Of a DNA stretch of 20,930 bases, positions 1-20,511 are shown in pieces (the stretch's first letter is position 1; each line of letters starts with the position of its first letter). A model generated the notes under the pieces. That model searched no databases. It was not told where the DNA came from and saw only the letters and a list, made by a program, of their open reading frames with translations. Both the position numbers and the translations under genes were made by a program. Origin of the DNA: a virus; the IMG/VR virus record IMGVR_UViG_3300012000_000147, positions 1 through 20,930 of that record, one strand, 5' to 3'.

Positions 1-708
1 AGTGCCAATCTCATCAAACATTGGAGTATTAGCAGTACCAGATGTACCAGTTAAGGCTTTCTTGTATACAGTTTTCTTTGTGGCTGTATTAGTAATCCAG
101 TATGCAGTAGTACCATCATCACAAATTGCATACACAGGCTGGTCAGTACCAGCATTGTAGTCAATAAAGTGAGTAACAGTTCCGTTTGTATCAATCTTAT
201 CTACATCATACTCATCATGAAGTAGTACGCCTGCATTGCCATTCCATTGAATAGAACGCATAGTCTGAAATGAACGACCATTAGCACGGATAGCACCAGT
301 AGTTACATGTCCCTGAGTACAGTTATTAAGTAGAGTTACCTCACCTTTGGTCCAGACATTTAATCCTTTGCTATCTGCAAAACGATAGTGTCCATTCTCA
401 TCATTGGTTGCAGGGTCAAAGAAGTTAATACCAGAACCGCCATGAAAAGACATCTGTGAGCGAATCCACCAACCAGTCAGTGATTGTTCACCTGGCTCAT
501 TAGTAGAATCAAACTGGTCCTTTTTAAAAGGTGCAGTTCTACGTCCATACGGACGCTCATTATTTGTAGCCAGAATAAATGGTAGCCCACCAATAGCAAT
601 GTCATAGGCTATATCTGTATTCTGCCAGATAGATGTAGAAGAAACTACACCCACATCTACGGCAATAGCCCGTTCGGCTCTGCCGTCTGTCAGGTCCCTG
701 CCCGCCAT
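1..708 (-). CDS. Large tail protein, N-terminal part (possible beta-propeller/nozzle type), runs off left edge
   Basis: The frame is open without a stop from the ATG at 708 to the window edge (236 codons), so this is the N-terminus of a larger protein. It begins MAGRDLTDGRAERAIAVDVG. Later come a Trp-rich stretch (LTGWWIRSQMSFHGGSGINFF, residues 97-117 roughly) and short turn-rich segments such as YAICDDGTTAYWITN (residues ~193-207). That alternation of beta strands and Gly/Asp turns resembles the large beta-propeller-like minor tail or nozzle proteins of actinophages, which I know by this Trp-Trp-x-Arg-Ser-Gln/phe-asp-pro pattern. The family call is from memory and the fold is inference. The start is supported by AGGAG at 715-719, six bases from the ATG. 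The gene follows the fibre genes but is separated from them by an inserted nuclease gene on the other strand. A relic copy of its first codons survives at 1157-1116. Confidence 0.8.
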   Translation of the reverse strand, partial: MAGRDLTDGRAERAIAVDVGVVSSTSIWQNTDIAYDIAIGGLPFILATNNERPYGRRTAPFKKDQFDSTNEPGEQSLTGWWIRSQMSFHGGSGINFFDPATNDENGHYRFADSKGLNVWTKGEVTLLNNCTQGHVTTGAIRANGRSFQTMRSIQWNGNAGVLLHDEYDVDKIDTNGTVTHFIDYNAGTDQPVYAICDDGTTAYWITNTATKKTVYKKALTGTSGTANTPMFDEIGT

Positions 709-714
709 ATGTAT

Positions 715-719
715 CTCCT
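715..719 (-). promoter_or_regulatory. Ribosome binding site of the left-edge tail gene
   Basis: AGGAG on the minus strand, six bases before the ATG at 708. It decides the start of the tail gene. It lies just upstream of the preferred nuclease start at 736, so it belongs to the inserted segment and not to the original leader. Confidence 0.7.
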
Positions 720-720
720 A

Positions 721-729
721 TGCTATAGT
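721..729 (+). promoter_or_regulatory. Possible extended -10 promoter for the nuclease gene
   Basis: TGCTATAGT fits the extended -10 form (TG, one base, then TATAGT, one mismatch from TATAAT). Six bases separate it from the A of the ATG at 736, so a transcript from a normal start point would begin on the start codon itself. No ribosome site precedes that ATG, and leaderless mRNAs are common in Actinobacteria. No -35 box is obvious. This is a prediction only. Confidence 0.4.
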
Positions 730-735
730 TGTTAT

Positions 736-1137
736 ATGAAAGAGTGCACTAAATGCAAAACAATCAAGTTAATAAATGATTTTTATCCAAGAAAAAATCG
801 ACCAGGTGGTAAAGAATCTGAATGCAAAAATTGTTCTAATGAACGTAAAAAGAAATATAGAATAGATAATCCAGATAAGATTCGTGCGGAAAATAAACGC
901 CGCAATCCTGGCTGGGATATTGATAGATATAACCAATACGTAGAACTTCAAAGTAATCGTTGCGCTATCTGCAATACAGATAATCCTATTCTTGCTGACT
1001 GGTGCTGTGACCACGACCATAATACTAATCAAGCAAGAGGATTACTTTGCGTAAATTGCAATGCTGGTCTAGGTTATTTTAAAGATAATCCAGAATCATT
1101 GCAGTCAGCAATTGACTATCTAAAGAAATGGCAGTAG
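736..1137 (+). CDS. Endonuclease VII-family HNH/His-Me nuclease, free-standing (homing-type)
   Basis: A 133-aa protein of the recombination endonuclease VII family. The N-terminal half has a zinc-finger-like Cys pattern (MKECTKCKT, then SECKNC around residues 30-35). The C-terminal half carries the family signature: CAIC (about residues 94-97), WCCDHDHN with the catalytic Asp-His-Asp-His, ARGLLCVNCNAGLG, and the closing SLQSAIDYLKKW. The Cys pairs bind a structural zinc in this family and the His/Asp cluster binds the catalytic metal. It is the only plus-strand gene, is visibly richer in A/T than its neighbours, and is wedged between two late genes, as expected of a mobile free-standing nuclease. 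Met at 736 is preferred because the extension to an ATG at 709 has no ribosome site and no family similarity, although that frame is open. T4 gp49 proper resolves branched DNA. Small solitary versions like this one more often behave as homing endonucleases. Confidence 0.93.
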   Translation: MKECTKCKTIKLINDFYPRKNRPGGKESECKNCSNERKKKYRIDNPDKIRAENKRRNPGWDIDRYNQYVELQSNRCAICNTDNPILADWCCDHDHNTNQARGLLCVNCNAGLGYFKDNPESLQSAIDYLKKWQ

Positions 1138-1157
1138 ATATCTCTACCAGCCACCAT
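1116..1157 (-). pseudogene. Relic start of the left-edge tail gene, cut off by the nuclease insertion
   Basis: On the minus strand AAGGAG (1160-1165) is followed by ATG at 1157 and the codons for MVAGRDIYCHFFR, then a stop at 1116-1118. The residues AGRD recur at the functional tail start at 708 (MAGRDLTDG), where all four codons differ only at the synonymous third base. The ribosome site is nearly identical to that of the glycine-rich gene starting at 3392. After Asp the sequence is nuclease-gene DNA read backwards. It is therefore best read as the original start of the tail gene, disconnected when the nuclease gene was inserted. Confidence 0.7.
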
Positions 1158-1181
1158 TACTCCTTAAGTCAGAAAGTTAAA

Positions 1182-1556
1182 TTATTCAGGTACTACTACT
1201 TCAACCCAAGATAGGGTTGGCTCATCCCAGGTGAAAAACTTTCCTTCTTCAACTGGCATAGGAGTTGGTGGTTGCCACTTAGCATCAGCATCTAATGTCC
1301 AAGAAGGAAACGGCTGAGGTGCAAAGAAATGGTCAGCAACTGGGTCATAGGTATAGCCAATGCCAGCATAGTTTTTACGGATGTTGCCATTGTAAGATGT
1401 CTGAACCCAGCGGGTATCCTCACCTAGTAGAGACTTGCAGAACATAATGCCCTTGGTCTCGTTCTCTACCCCATCAAGGAGTAGTTCATCATTAGCCACA
1501 ACAATTACCTGTGTGACTACATTGTTCTCATCTAGTTGTGCAAAGTGTGCCATCAT
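1182..1556 (-). CDS. Small tail-fibre-associated protein of a family common in marine and freshwater phages
   Basis: A 124-aa protein starting MMAHFAQLDENNVVTQVI and containing GIMFCKSLLG, QTSYNGNIRKNYAGIGYTYD and several Trp-containing strands near the C-terminus (PSWTL, KWQPP, FTWDE, SWVEV). I recognise this as a small family repeatedly found beside tail-fibre genes of cyanophages and other aquatic phages. Its biochemical role is not established as far as I know. The start could be either of two consecutive ATGs (1556 or 1553), both served by AAGGAA overlapping the stop of the preceding glycine-rich gene. It ends 44 bases from the convergent nuclease gene. No terminator with a T-run is visible in that gap. 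Confidence 0.85.
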   Translation of the reverse strand: MMAHFAQLDENNVVTQVIVVANDELLLDGVENETKGIMFCKSLLGEDTRWVQTSYNGNIRKNYAGIGYTYDPVADHFFAPQPFPSWTLDADAKWQPPTPMPVEEGKFFTWDEPTLSWVEVVVPE

Positions 1557-4262: not shown

Positions 4263-4588
4263 TAGACCGAAGCCTCGTCTCCAAACGCCTGGAAAGCAAC
4301 GTTTGCTGTAGAAGCGTAGACTGATAGCACATCTGTTGTTGCAAGGGTTAGGCCCACTGTAATGATTGTTGAGTCAGATGCTCCGACTGTAATGTCATAT
4401 CCAATATAATGCTTAGGGTCAATTGCTGCACCTGCTGGACGTACTGCCAGTCTAAATGTAGCAGCAGTTGATGTTAGGTTAGCAACTGAGATAGATGAGA
4501 CTACCGCTTCCTTCGCAGAAGGAACTGTATAGAGAGTTGTAAGTGTAGTTGCTGCTGGGTTTACTTGCCCAAGAACTTTTTTAGCCAT
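4262..4588 (-). CDS. Small virion/tail-associated protein, beta-rich
   Basis: A 108-aa protein, MAKKVLGQVNPAATTLTTLY, with alternating Thr/Ala/Val strands and a Pro-Lys-His-Tyr-Ile-Gly turn (about residues 58-63). It resembles a family of roughly 100-aa proteins encoded beside tail-fibre genes in aquatic phages (typical wording: lgq..p.a.t.t.lYtvP....avvssi.v.N). Nothing suggests catalysis. Its position between the long fibre gene and the glycine-rich adhesins argues for a fibre or tail decoration role. AAAGGAT lies upstream of the ATG, and the stop overlaps the next ATG by one base (TAATG). Confidence 0.82.
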   Translation of the reverse strand: MAKKVLGQVNPAATTLTTLYTVPSAKEAVVSSISVANLTSTAATFRLAVRPAGAAIDPKHYIGYDITVGASDSTIITVGLTLATTDVLSVYASTANVAFQAFGDEASV

Positions 4589-4604
4589 TGTTTATATCCT
4601 TTGC

Positions 4605-6551
4605 TTAGGCACCCATCAGCATAAATACTGACGGTGTAGGGTCGGTTACGATTGATGCCCAACTTGCAGTTGAACCATTTGTTGTTAAGTACTTACCTGA
4701 GTTACCAGTCTGTGATGGTAGTGCATTGACTGTTCCCCAAGAAGAAGTTGTACCATCGGTAGTCAGGTATTTGCCTGAGTTACCTGTCTGGCTTGGTACT
4801 ACATATGCTGTTGAGTCTGTAGCAACCAAAGTTTTTGATGATGGAATCGCAGTTCCATTGATAGTTGTGCTCCATGATGAAGTTGTGCCATCAGTTGTAA
4901 GTGCCTTACCAGAGTTTCCAGTTTGAGATGGAACTACATAAGCAGTTGAATCTGTTGCTACCAGAGTCTTTGATGTTGGAATTGTTGTTCCATTAATACT
5001 TGTAGCAGTTGCTACACCTAGCGCTGGTGTTGTTAATGTTGGGCTAGCCTGCATTACAAATGTTGAACCAGTACCAGTCTGAGAAGCAACTGCTGTTGCC
5101 ACCCCTACAGATGTAATTGGACCAGTCAAATTAGATGGAGCAATTACTGCTGTATCTACGTAACCTTTAGTTGCAGCATCTGTAGATACGGTAGGAGTTC
5201 CCATACCAGTAATTTTGTTAGTGCCCATTGCAATAGCACCAGACATTGTGCCACCAGTTGTAGACAACTTACCAGCCAGTGAGTTAGTTACTGTTGTAGC
5301 AAAGTTAGCATCGTTGCCAAGAGAAGCAGCCAACTCGTTAAGAGTGTCAAGCGCTGCTGGAGCAGATGCTACAAGGTTAGATACTGCAGTTCCAACAAAT
5401 GCTGTAGTTGCTACCTGGGTAGTATTGGTTCCAGCAACTGCAGTTGGAGCAGTAGGTGTACCAGTTAAGGCTGGGCTAGCCAGTGGAGCGTAGGTACTTG
5501 CTGCTGTGCTAGTTGCTAACTTAGAATCAATCTGAGCCTGAATAGGTGATGTAACACCATCTACATATCCAAGTTCTGTTGCAGATACTGTTGCAGATGG
5601 AGCAATCTTTGTCCAAGCAATAGCAGCGGATGCATTAATATCCGCATCTACAATACTGTTAGTTAAGTTAGTCTTGCTATAAGCAATCTGAGCAGATGAG
5701 TTAATATCAGCATTAACAATAGTTCCATCAGCAATCATAGTAGATGTGACGGTTCCAGTATCTGCAGCGGTAATTGCTGTACCTAAAATCTTAGTCTTAT
5801 CAATTGCTGCTGCTGCATTAATATCAGCATTGACAATTGTGCCATCTAGAATCTTGGCAGATGTTACTGCTCCGTCTGCTAGGTCACCAGTAACAATAGT
5901 GCCATCAACAATTTTGGCTGATGTAACTGAGTTAGGCGCTAACTTACCTTCTGTAACTGATAGGTCATCAATCTTGGTTGTACCAACAGCACCAGTTGCA
6001 ATCTTGCCACTAGTAATAGCAGAATCTGCAATGTCACCTGTAGTAATTCCTAAGTCTGCAATTTTGGCAGATGTGATTGCACTATCTGCAATCTTTGCAG
6101 TGGTTATATTTGAGTCAGCAATTTTTGCAGTAGTTACAGCAGATGCTTGAAGCATTGCTGTAGTAATCATATTGGTATCTGTTGTCTCAAGGACGTTGGC
6201 AATAGTTAGCCCGTGTGCTGTAGTGGTATTTTCAATGTGAGTATTAGCCTCACGGTAGTCACGACCAATTGCCATGTGGCGAACTGAAGCACCCGCTGAG
6301 TGAGCCTGAGCAGATGAACCATCAACGCCACGAATAATTGTCAGTGTATTGGTACTGACCGCGGTAACATCTACAATTTCTTCAAGCGCTGTATCTGGGT
6401 CAATAACTACTGTGAAGATTTCTCCAGCAGAAATTGTGATACCACCAAGGAGTGCACTACCTGATACGACTGTAGCAGAGGTGGCGCTTGAGTTAATGCC
6501 AGCAGTAAGGGTTGTTTGCTGGGAACGGGATGAGTATTTTCTTGTTGTCAT
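4605..6551 (-). CDS. Tail fibre protein with decapeptide and 45-residue repeats
   Basis: A 648-aa protein. Residues 10-105 look like a virion-anchoring N-terminal domain of fibre proteins (TLTAGINSSATSATVVSG, then TLTIIRGVDGSSAQAHSAGA and GRDYREANTHI). Residues ~138-247 form eleven tandem 10-residue units of the type A-I-T-S-A-K-I-A-D-S. Residues ~345-470 contain fibre-type segments (LASPALTGTPTAPT, TTAFVGTAV, DTLNELAASLGNDANF, TDAATKGYVDTAV) well known from phage fibres. Residues 519-633 hold two near-identical 45-residue repeats plus a partial third. The protein ends SVFMLMGA. It is low-complexity (Ala/Thr/Ser) with no enzymatic domain. The start at 6551 follows TAGGAAGATTGA, which overlaps the stop of the connector gene. 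Likely an extended trimeric fibre or its shaft. Confidence 0.9.
   Translation of the reverse strand: MTTRKYSSRSQQTTLTAGINSSATSATVVSGSALLGGITISAGEIFTVVIDPDTALEEIVDVTAVSTNTLTIIRGVDGSSAQAHSAGASVRHMAIGRDYREANTHIENTTTAHGLTIANVLETTDTNMITTAMLQASAVTTAKIADSNITTAKIADSAITSAKIADLGITTGDIADSAITSGKIATGAVGTTKIDDLSVTEGKLAPNSVTSAKIVDGTIVTGDLADGAVTSAKILDGTIVNADINAAAAIDKTKILGTAITAADTGTVTSTMIADGTIVNADINSSAQIAYSKTNLTNSIVDADINASAAIAWTKIAPSATVSATELGYVDGVTSPIQAQIDSKLATSTAASTYAPLASPALTGTPTAPTAVAGTNTTQVATTAFVGTAVSNLVASAPAALDTLNELAASLGNDANFATTVTNSLAGKLSTTGGTMSGAIAMGTNKITGMGTPTVSTDAATKGYVDTAVIAPSNLTGPITSVGVATAVASQTGTGSTFVMQASPTLTTPALGVATATSINGTTIPTSKTLVATDSTAYVVPSQTGNSGKALTTDGTTSSWSTTINGTAIPSSKTLVATDSTAYVVPSQTGNSGKYLTTDGTTSSWGTVNALPSQTGNSGKYLTTNGSTASWASIVTDPTPSVFMLMGA
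4653..4997 (-). repeat. Tandem 45-residue coding repeats (two full, one partial) in the fibre gene
   Basis: Residues 519-563 and 564-608 are near-identical units (ING-T-(T/A)-IP, KTLVATDSTAYVVPSQTGNS, GK-x-LTTDGTTSSW). A shorter third copy (PSQTGNSGKYLTTNGSTASW) follows at about 612-631. The DNA copies differ at many third positions, so the repeat is old or under protein-level selection rather than a recent slippage product. Confidence 0.85.
5811..6140 (-). repeat. Eleven tandem decapeptide (30-bp) coding repeats in the fibre gene
   Basis: Residues 138-247 run as uninterrupted 10-residue units, for example AVTTAKIADS, NITTAKIADS, AITSAKIADL, GITTGDIADS, AITSGKIATG, with Ile/Val at position 2, Lys or Asp at 6, Ile/Leu at 7 and usually Asp at 9. 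The regular spacing of hydrophobic positions suggests one beta turn or strand per unit in a fibre shaft. Confidence 0.85.
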
Positions 6552-19670: not shown

Positions 19671-19945
19671 TATTCATCTCCTTCATCTTCCAAATCATCT
19701 TCAACTTCTTCTTTTGGCTGGCCAAGGGAATCTTTGTTGTACTCCTTTGCCAAACGCATCATGCCTTCAGCATTCCAGGGTGTCATTGCTTCTGACACTT
19801 CCGTATGCAAGTACCGAGTTCCATCGTAATCTGCCCATTCTGTAATTATTAGCCAGTTAGCGCAGATAAAGTTATACCCTTCAGGGTCTTCCTCTATTAG
19901 AACTTGTAGTGCTTGCTCTATCTTCTCCCTGAATTGTTTACTCAT
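19670..19945 (-). CDS. Small acidic actinophage protein
   Basis: A 91-aa protein from the ATG at 19945, which overlaps the protease stop as ATGA. A longer frame to 20002 would intrude into the protease gene and is rejected. The core reads ICANWLIITEWADYDGTRYL and then TPWNAEGMMRLAKEY, resembling a small actinophage family with the pattern W-[VL]-x-[IV]-x-E-x-x-[DN]-x-[DE]-G-x-R-x-[LM] ... [TS]-P-W-x-x-x-G-M[LM]. The C-terminus is extremely acidic (EEVEDDLEDEGDE). Direct coupling to the protease suggests the two may act together, for example as a regulator or partner. This is inference. Confidence 0.82.
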   Translation of the reverse strand: MSKQFREKIEQALQVLIEEDPEGYNFICANWLIITEWADYDGTRYLHTEVSEAMTPWNAEGMMRLAKEYNKDSLGQPKEEVEDDLEDEGDE

Positions 19946-20511
19946 TTTGCGTACTGAATCTTTGTTATAATTGGTGGGCTTGTATAAATATCCCACACAC
20001 AAGCAATCTCAATTGCTTTGCGAATTATTTTTTCTGCTTGTTCTGGTGTTTCACACTTATCAATATCAAGAGCCTCCATAACACCCAGAGCAACATCGCC
20101 GCCGTTGCCACCATAGTAGATGCCACGAATATCACGGTCCCAAGAATAATCTTGAAATACAGGATAAAGGACTCCGTTAACGCTGATAATAAAATCTGAA
20201 TCTTGCGCTGCAGCATCCCCATCTTCTTTCATATCATAACCTGCATCAATAAAAGTTTTACGCATAGTAGGGATAAACTTTTGCGTCATAAACAAATCTA
20301 AGTTTTCTAACTTAGTTGGTTTAGGTGGCTTCCATCCAAACTGCAAGATGTTTGAACCACGACTAGCGCCAGAACCTGCAATGAGGTATCCGTTGTTTTC
20401 AATAATCTTATGAGTAGCAATCGTCATAGGACGACCTGCTTCATCAGATGCTCTAGAATCGCAGCCGATTACAGACCAACCATCTCCTTGATAAGCAGCA
20501 AGTGTTGTCAT
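19942..20511 (-). CDS. Proteasome/HslV-type Ntn hydrolase, candidate head maturation protease
   Basis: A 189-aa protein starting MTTLAAYQGDGWSVIGCDSR. Counting the Thr after the initiator Met as 1, it has Thr1, Asp17 (in GCDSR), Lys34 (THKI, against Lys33 in HslV with one inserted residue) and Gly47 in the AGSGAS strand turn. These are the catalytic and oxyanion positions of proteasome beta subunits and HslV. Later YGGNGGDVALGVMEAL matches the HslV helix entry, with Asn where HslV has Ser. The end VWDIYTSPPIITKI parallels the Asp-x-x-Ser-Gly closing strand. With no propeptide, Met removal alone would expose the nucleophile. It lies 14 bases after the probable portal gene and upstream of scaffold and capsid, the place normally held by a head maturation protease. 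The fold assignment is strong. Cleavage of scaffold or capsid is inference. Confidence 0.88.
   Translation of the reverse strand: MTTLAAYQGDGWSVIGCDSRASDEAGRPMTIATHKIIENNGYLIAGSGASRGSNILQFGWKPPKPTKLENLDLFMTQKFIPTMRKTFIDAGYDMKEDGDAAAQDSDFIISVNGVLYPVFQDYSWDRDIRGIYYGGNGGDVALGVMEALDIDKCETPEQAEKIIRKAIEIACVWDIYTSPPIITKIQYAK

Follow-up and report, generated by a model that had tools for sequence, protein, structure and literature searches.

How can a nuclease gene occupy the very start of a phage gene while leaving that gene intact? The question is raised by the left end of the window (the whole stretch of DNA analysed, a 20,930-base IMG/VR virus record). The minus strand of the window has a late-gene block that encodes a capsid protein (PF13252), glycine-rich proteins and unclassified proteins. 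Also in this block, a 189-aa protein (19942–20511, minus strand) has a weak, below-threshold match to a proteasome subunit (E 0.0043). At the locus in question, a plus-strand nuclease gene is flanked on the minus strand by two versions of the start of one host gene. Both ribosome sites and both ATGs lie where a sequence-only reading of the window had placed them. The features are as follows.

1–708, minus strand: host gene, 236 codons in the window, running off its end; late structural region
679–708, minus strand: new, recoded host codons 1–10 (MAGRDLTDGR), delimited by nucleotide identity with the nearest nuclease-free relatives
715–719, minus strand: new ribosome site AGGAG of the functional gene, read directly, in a tract unmatched in nuclease-free relatives
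721–729, plus strand: promoter-like extended −10, TG-C-TATAGT, 6 nt upstream of the nuclease ATG, assigned from spacing across loci
736–1137, plus strand: Endo VII (DHHRN)-family nuclease, 133 aa (PF02945 Endonuclease_7, E 5.5e-20; phrog_2633, 2e-34)
1165–1138, minus strand: relic of the host start, with AAGGAG at 1165–1160, an ATG/GTG start at 1157/1154, and codons A-G-R-D plus AT
1182–1556, minus strand: 124-aa gene upstream of the host gene in the window phage (phrog_7759, "unknown function")

The host gene has no Pfam match and falls in phrog_11667, whose PHROG category is "unknown function"; its earlier designation as a tail gene is therefore not borne out. Because it is conserved, the gene is presumed to be important to the phage. 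The location of the 124-aa gene varies among relatives.

The relic reads AAGGAG-TA-ATG GTG GCT GGT AGA GAT AT and runs into the nuclease stop (TAG, 1135–1137), placing the junction at 1137/1138. Its frame from the ATG at 1157 is 13 codons long on the minus strand (M-V-A-G-R-D-I-Y-C-H-F-F-R-stop). The functional start, also on the minus strand, reads AGGAG-(N6)-ATG GCG GGC AGG GAC CTG ACA, giving M-A-G-R-D-L-T from the ATG at 708. Direct reading confirms that the shared A-G-R-D codons (GCT GGT AGA GAT in the relic, GCG GGC AGG GAC in the functional copy) differ solely at silent third positions. Against a matrix built from nuclease-free starts the relic reaches 24.1 bits, a score equalled by 0 of 400 dinucleotide shuffles, and it is identical to the nuclease-free start of L028 (31/31 nt) and nearly so to that of L008 (36/38, gap included). 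The nuclease is inserted inside host-gene codon 6, the old ribosome site and codons 1–5 persist as the relic, and the new ribosome site and recoded start (719–679) restore the reading of the host gene. The palindrome AGATATCT at the junction, earlier thought noteworthy, is absent from other junctions; it therefore looks incidental and was dropped.

The family-conserved start of the nuclease is M10, at 736, which corrects the start at 709 assumed earlier; the assignment to the Endonuclease VII family holds. The protein is composed of an N-terminal Cys-x2-Cys/Cys-x2-Cys zinc ribbon and a C-terminal Endo VII domain, and residues D92, H93, H95, R101 and N109 as well as C76, C79, C105 and C108 are invariant in 18 nuclease sequences. 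It is 37% identical to F-CphI of cyanophage S-PM2 over 99% coverage (E 3e-20), the C-terminal Endo VII motif included. F-CphI is described as a DHHRN-family enzyme whose homing has been proven by experiment (PMC6083498). Profile matches were also obtained to T4 Endo VII (1e7d, 2.1e-5) and Hpy99I (5.7e-12). The T4 Endo VII alignment is partial, spanning only profile positions 66–118 and Endo VII residues 13–71, and the layout of the T4 resolvase (gp49), with an N-terminal motif and whole-length alignment, was not found. By its sequence, the nuclease thus has the features of the DHHRN (F-CphI) family, namely the catalytic motif, its C-terminal placement and full-length similarity. In 30 of 36 pairs dN/dS is 0.04–0.35 (the other six pairs were not computable), indicating purifying selection and hence that the nuclease gene is kept. 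An AlphaFold model has a mean pLDDT of 67, with the nuclease part mostly at 42–63. A scan of the bacterial and archaeal contigs of a genome collection with the nuclease alignment found no relative, and so gives no prophage or host evidence.

To compare occupied and empty sites, IMG/VR was scanned with the host gene (439 relatives, 80 kept as L001–L080) and with the nuclease (29 loci). In 21 of the 29, with at least 58% identity (L081–L101), the nuclease immediately adjoins the start of this host gene; the remaining eight (at most 43% identity, or a short match) lie elsewhere. L046–L048 from the host-gene scan also carry the nuclease. A scan with the 18-sequence alignment added L123, L124 and L133 at the host start and three 40% loci elsewhere, and a second host-gene protein gave 80 additional loci. 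Carriers thus comprise the window and 27 contigs with nucleases at least 58% identical, all at this host-gene start; L207 has a nuclease fragment at its contig end. The 149 loci taken as nuclease-free include L011 in the identity-drop and tree analyses and retain some near-identical contigs; codon counts were made from distinct sequences. Redundant contigs were left out (L001, L047, L048, L083, L089, L093, L100, L141, L181, L186, and L111–L140 other than L123, L124 and L133), and L010 (different nuclease), L217 (distant nuclease match) and L153 (contig-end match) were left out of the counts. L207, whose contig ends inside the nuclease, was used in the identity-drop and start-codon analysis and omitted from the relic, tree, second-start and −10 counts; the tree also lacks L084 and L096, whose gene bodies are short or cut.

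A start relic adjoins the nuclease in 17 of 21 distinct carriers. Sixteen relics beat 400/400 shuffles and that of L124 beats 399/400; the relics of L046 and L124 keep four codons. The remaining four loci (L088, L090, L091 and L092) have no relic codons, L092 keeping the ribosome site and ATG; carriers of this kind had been named beforehand as counting against the sequence-only reading. In several carriers (e.g., L086, L094 and L099), the last residues of the nuclease are read antisense through the relic. Nuclease-free relatives with both starts, which would likewise have counted against that reading, were looked for, and an upstream second start with a ribosome site was found in 0 of the 146 loci without nuclease, of which 133 supplied all 600 nt; five weak matrix matches (at least 10) occur among the 146, none after a GGAG-type site on reading. 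Nuclease-free relatives had been expected to show one start after AAGGAGTAATG. L007, L008 and L028 do so, with the single start AAGGAGTAATG GTG GCT GGT AGA GAT AT as in the window relic, but they continue M-V-A-G-R-D-I-T rather than the anticipated L-T. The nuclease is patchily distributed: a gene-body tree with 142 members, including 19 carriers, requires at least 12 state changes. The same junctions recur in different metagenomes (L046/L047/L048; L082/L083; L099/L100; window/L001), and the carriers have many different left contexts.

Comparison of carriers with nuclease-free relatives reveals a mosaic. On the left, the match to empty sites of different nuclease-free lineages ends at +12 to +20 (codons 4–7) in 15 of 19 loci. 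On the right, identity is low in codons 1–10 and recovers thereafter: 60% and then 92% (codons 11–50) at the nucleotide level for the window and its nearest nuclease-free relatives. The pair L085/L036 matches on the left at 61/61 nt to +18, with 57% in codons 1–10 and 98% in codons 11–50; the values are 59/61 nt to +15, 67% and 98% for L082/L021, and 60/61 nt to +18, 70% and 94% for L087/L078. L101/L180 match at 60/61 nt to +15, the gene body of L101 having no close sampled partner (30%). For carriers with a partner at least 85% identical in codons 11–30, the median identity drop in codons 1–10 is 0.20 (15 pairs), compared with 0.0 in 89 nuclease-free pairs (Mann–Whitney p 1.8e-8). In L088–L092, L094, L101 and L123, either no close nuclease-free body was sampled or the drop is at most 0.05, and the mosaic is not seen there. 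In accordance with a joint transfer, nuclease distance follows codons 1–9 (Mantel r 0.33, p 0.004, n 16), whereas gene-body distance follows codons 11–20 (r 0.63) and not codons 1–9 (r 0.10, p 0.21); the contrast is one of degree, because nuclease distance correlates as well with codons 11–20 (r 0.29, p 0.008) and has a weak correlation with the gene body (r 0.20, p 0.045). The mosaic boundary at codon 10 supports the claim that the nuclease came with a co-converted foreign flank. The left and right match limits indicate that one block replaced recipient codons ~6–10 and that recipient codons 1–5 became the relic. The structure, site, mosaic, relic and patchiness are read from the sequences themselves; the putative mobile block is made of the nuclease, the promoter region, the ribosome site and about ten recoded codons.

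The locus is very probably a start-replacing homing element, in which an F-CphI-kind nuclease and a recoded 5′ end form one mobile unit. In a mixed infection, the nuclease would cut nuclease-free genomes near host codons 4–7. Repair would copy the carrier sequence, using homology to the relic and upstream DNA on the left and to the gene body on the right. The recipient would gain the nuclease together with a start no longer cut by it, and the host gene would stay intact. The relic would be the recipient's own former start and would provide a homology arm for the next transfer. The earlier proposal that the nuclease arrived by homing and re-supplied a start and ribosome site is thus supported by the occupied and empty sites; we infer that the enzyme cuts at codons 4–7, that the carrier templates the repair, that the new start resists cleavage and that the relic acts as left arm. 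In the contigs compared, the arrangement is recurrent across dozens of related phages.

The block also appears to carry its own promoter. A −10-like hexamer (at least 5/6 match, 5–7 nt from the start) precedes 20 of 22 nuclease or ORF genes at the host start, compared with 1249 of 55767 ATG triplets. Within the family, the match is at least 5/6 in 19 of 20 nuclease genes, and the distance from hexamer to start is exactly 6 nt in 18 of these genes and 5 or 7 nt in the other two. The L010 nuclease has the same spacing, as has the L011 ORF with a weaker, 4/6 hexamer. The case for this element rests on cross-locus spacing, and a generic sigma-70 scan of window positions 500–1400 returned no promoter at the nuclease start. 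With the −10 this close to the ATG, the nuclease mRNA would have no leader, and we infer leaderless expression.

The new starts differ in composition from the nuclease-free ones. Distinct carriers begin with ATG (7), ATA (5), ATC (4) or GTG (3), and distinct nuclease-free genes with GTG (32), TTG (11), ATG (7) or ATC (3); seven further nuclease-free rows (AAC 5, ATA 2) apparently begin one codon later. Among distinct carrier starts, 7 of 19 encode the Arg by AGG or CGG, compared with 1 of 61 nuclease-free ones (Fisher p 1.1e-4). The ATC starts of nuclease-free L150, L184 and L079 are possible scars of nuclease loss; the L184 gene body nearly equals that of carrier L086. The relic of L123 is itself of the ATC type found in other carriers, which suggests repeated invasion of the site. 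As a separate observation, apparent AUC or AUA host starts follow a strong ribosome site in carriers L088, L091, L094–L099 and L101, and occur with no nuclease at the start in L079, L150, L184 and L217. These genes have no in-frame ATG, GTG or TTG close upstream (in L091 a TTG lies 30 codons upstream), and within the first 40 codons such a codon is mostly lacking too, exceptions being L098 (GTG, codon 6) and L101 (TTG, codon 10).

L133 and L275 are two further ARRANGEMENTS. In L133 (2971–3399), the nuclease is inserted at the same codon but lies on the host-gene strand, opposite to its orientation in all other carriers. Its frame is fused to the old host start, beginning at GTG (V-A-T-R-D-I-E-F...), and no other usable nuclease start precedes the first zinc cysteines. 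The host gene restarts after the nuclease as M-A-T-R-D-L-T. No second fusion of this type was found. In L275 (2215–2680), an unrelated Endo VII nuclease lies between the relic and the functional start of a 246-aa gene that, on reading, we take to be glycosyltransferase-like. The L275 relic is GTG AAA CCA CAG TTG ATG ATT CAG and the functional start ATG AAG CCA CAA TTG ATG GTG CAA; L289 (91%) and L290 (86%), both nuclease-free, carry one start only, GTG AAA CCT CAA TTG ATG ATT CAG. The short frame of the L275 relic overlaps the nuclease start. L275 was pointed to by a nucleotide repeat search around Endo VII genes (71 loci scored, some of the window family), and a peptide-based scan of 71 other Endo VII loci found the layout in this one only. 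L273 was rejected as a start swap, being a look-alike with no ribosome site. Seven annotated phages had no relic, their weak matches not being starts with ribosome sites. The start swap is therefore not a rule for the Endo VII enzyme family.

The strongest rival, which we regard as unlikely in general, is that the start was recoded in place: one insertion occurred per lineage, repair duplicated the start, and silent drift of the functional copy followed, with selection disfavouring either renewed cutting or recombination with the relic, and no foreign start was imported. Functional starts do differ among carrier clades, and in L133 the relic and the functional copy share the unusual ATRD, so that the new L133 start may derive from the same lineage and this account may hold there. 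In close pairs, however, identity drops within codons 1–10 and is back to 90–100% at codon 11, exceeding the expected drift. In addition, the window and L085 share 93% of codons 1–9 although their bodies are only 72% identical in amino acids, and amino acids and start codons have changed as well (VVSRD to IAGRD in L095).

It is improbable that the nuclease is an ordinary intergenic, free-standing homing enzyme with a distant cut site, the second start being a chance look-alike or an older duplication. Free-standing enzymes of T4 are described as cutting hundreds to thousands of bp away (PMC2988022), and the 34% identical Endo VII of L010 splits a terminator-like hairpin rather than the host gene. 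Such a history does not account for left matches that end inside codons 4–7 in 15/19 loci, the lack of two ribosome-site starts in any of 146 nuclease-free loci, or relics that beat every shuffle in 16/21 loci and all but one in another. A housekeeping resolvase or defence nuclease placed by mosaic recombination is brought to mind by the Pfam domain, named after the T4 resolvase, and by the best solved relative, the restriction enzyme Hpy99I. It is very improbable given the full-length similarity to F-CphI, the C-terminal motif characteristic of the endonuclease-clade layout (PMC6083498), the fixed site and the patchy presence. The data are metagenome contigs only, but the recurrence of the same junctions in different metagenomes and the many left contexts make an assembly artefact or chimera a negligible prospect. 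An intron- or intein-borne nuclease was rejected: no self-splicing RNA was matched in Rfam in the window, L085, L086, L133, L046 or L275 (one chance-level match falls in window positions 500–1400), and the window nuclease is antisense to the host gene, which precludes an intein. Chance, intergenic insertion, an intron or intein, and assembly error are thus poorly supported.

The start-replacing element resembles several known systems. In the WHO elements of Torulaspora and Lachancea yeasts, as described in PMC7282813, resistance comes from the new 3′ end, and the leftover fragment is called "an essential part" for the homology that it offers. Both systems pair a zinc-finger homing nuclease with a resistant piece of the target gene, use the former gene end as second homology region (resistance and homology role being putative here), keep the host gene full length, and have a replacement end that travels with the nuclease while the old end stays as a fragment. 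WHO elements are reported at the 3′ end of yeast nuclear FBA1, with ~400 bp fragments and an intein-derived HO-type enzyme (PMC7282813), whereas here a phage gene is replaced at its 5′ end, with ribosome site and start codon, over ~30 bp, by an Endo VII-type enzyme. The window protein is of the Endo VII family and not of the WHO/HO family, so that the element would work like a WHO element without being a member of that family, and action on the 5′ end means that a ribosome site and start must be brought. The mORFs of fungal mitochondria (Allomyces atp6; Glomus atp6, atp9, cox2 and nad3), as presented in PMC3630166, likewise supply a foreign in-frame gene end and leave the native end behind with largely silent differences, but concern the C-terminal end, LAGLIDADG or GIY-YIG enzymes and an organelle. 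F-CphI shares the N-terminal part, the C-terminal Endo VII motif and a free-standing phage gene; it adjoins psbA, and its own target is reported to be protected by a group I intron (PMC6083498), whereas here there is no intron and the recoded start would protect. T4-type mobE in nrdA and mobA in gene 60 are also free-standing nucleases with flank co-conversion and important target genes, but are described with a far-off cut or a protein split in two (PMC2988022), whereas here the protein is whole via the new start. As in free-standing homing elements, the nuclease is an optional gene at one site, with empty sites in close relatives. A full-text literature search, with subscription papers mostly outside its coverage, found no phage or 5′-end case of gene-end replacement.

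If this reading is correct, a mobile gene can lodge in the coding sequence of a viral gene of presumed importance with no need of an intron, an intein or a split protein, and supplies an uncuttable version of the part it destroys. The many natural occupied and empty sites offer a direct test of what the nuclease recognises, of resistance and of what the relic does, and annotators should be aware that a start at these sites may have been exchanged and be non-standard. More broadly, we lean towards a class of "home-and-rescue" phage elements, in which a nuclease aimed at the first codons travels with a recoded, uncuttable ribosome site and start. Such elements would have arisen more than once (two orientations at one gene; an unrelated nuclease at the L275 gene), driven rapid start-codon turnover including AUA and AUC, and left nuclease-free scars. 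They would be the natural 5′-end phage counterpart of WHO elements in yeast, and likewise of gene drives engineered with a recoded rescue.

Other genes occupy or adjoin the same spacer. The different nuclease of L010 (4574–4945; Endo VII, 34%) lies further upstream and leaves the gene start untouched; the conserved hairpin that it splits is TGAGCA...TGCTCA followed by a T-rich stretch. Nucleases of the L139 type (40%) lie between two other genes, with no relic by eye. L011 has at the same place an unrelated 158-aa antisense ORF (4507–4983), with no family match and no evident relic, which may be another kind of mobile gene; its host start is recoded with CGG. By eye, a conserved hairpin with a T-rich tail lies in the spacer upstream of the host gene in many loci (L002, L003, L021, L082, L124). 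Its stems apparently vary in a compensating manner (TGAGCA/TGCTCA, TGGGTA/TGCCCA, TGACCA/TGGTCA), and it is probably a terminator.
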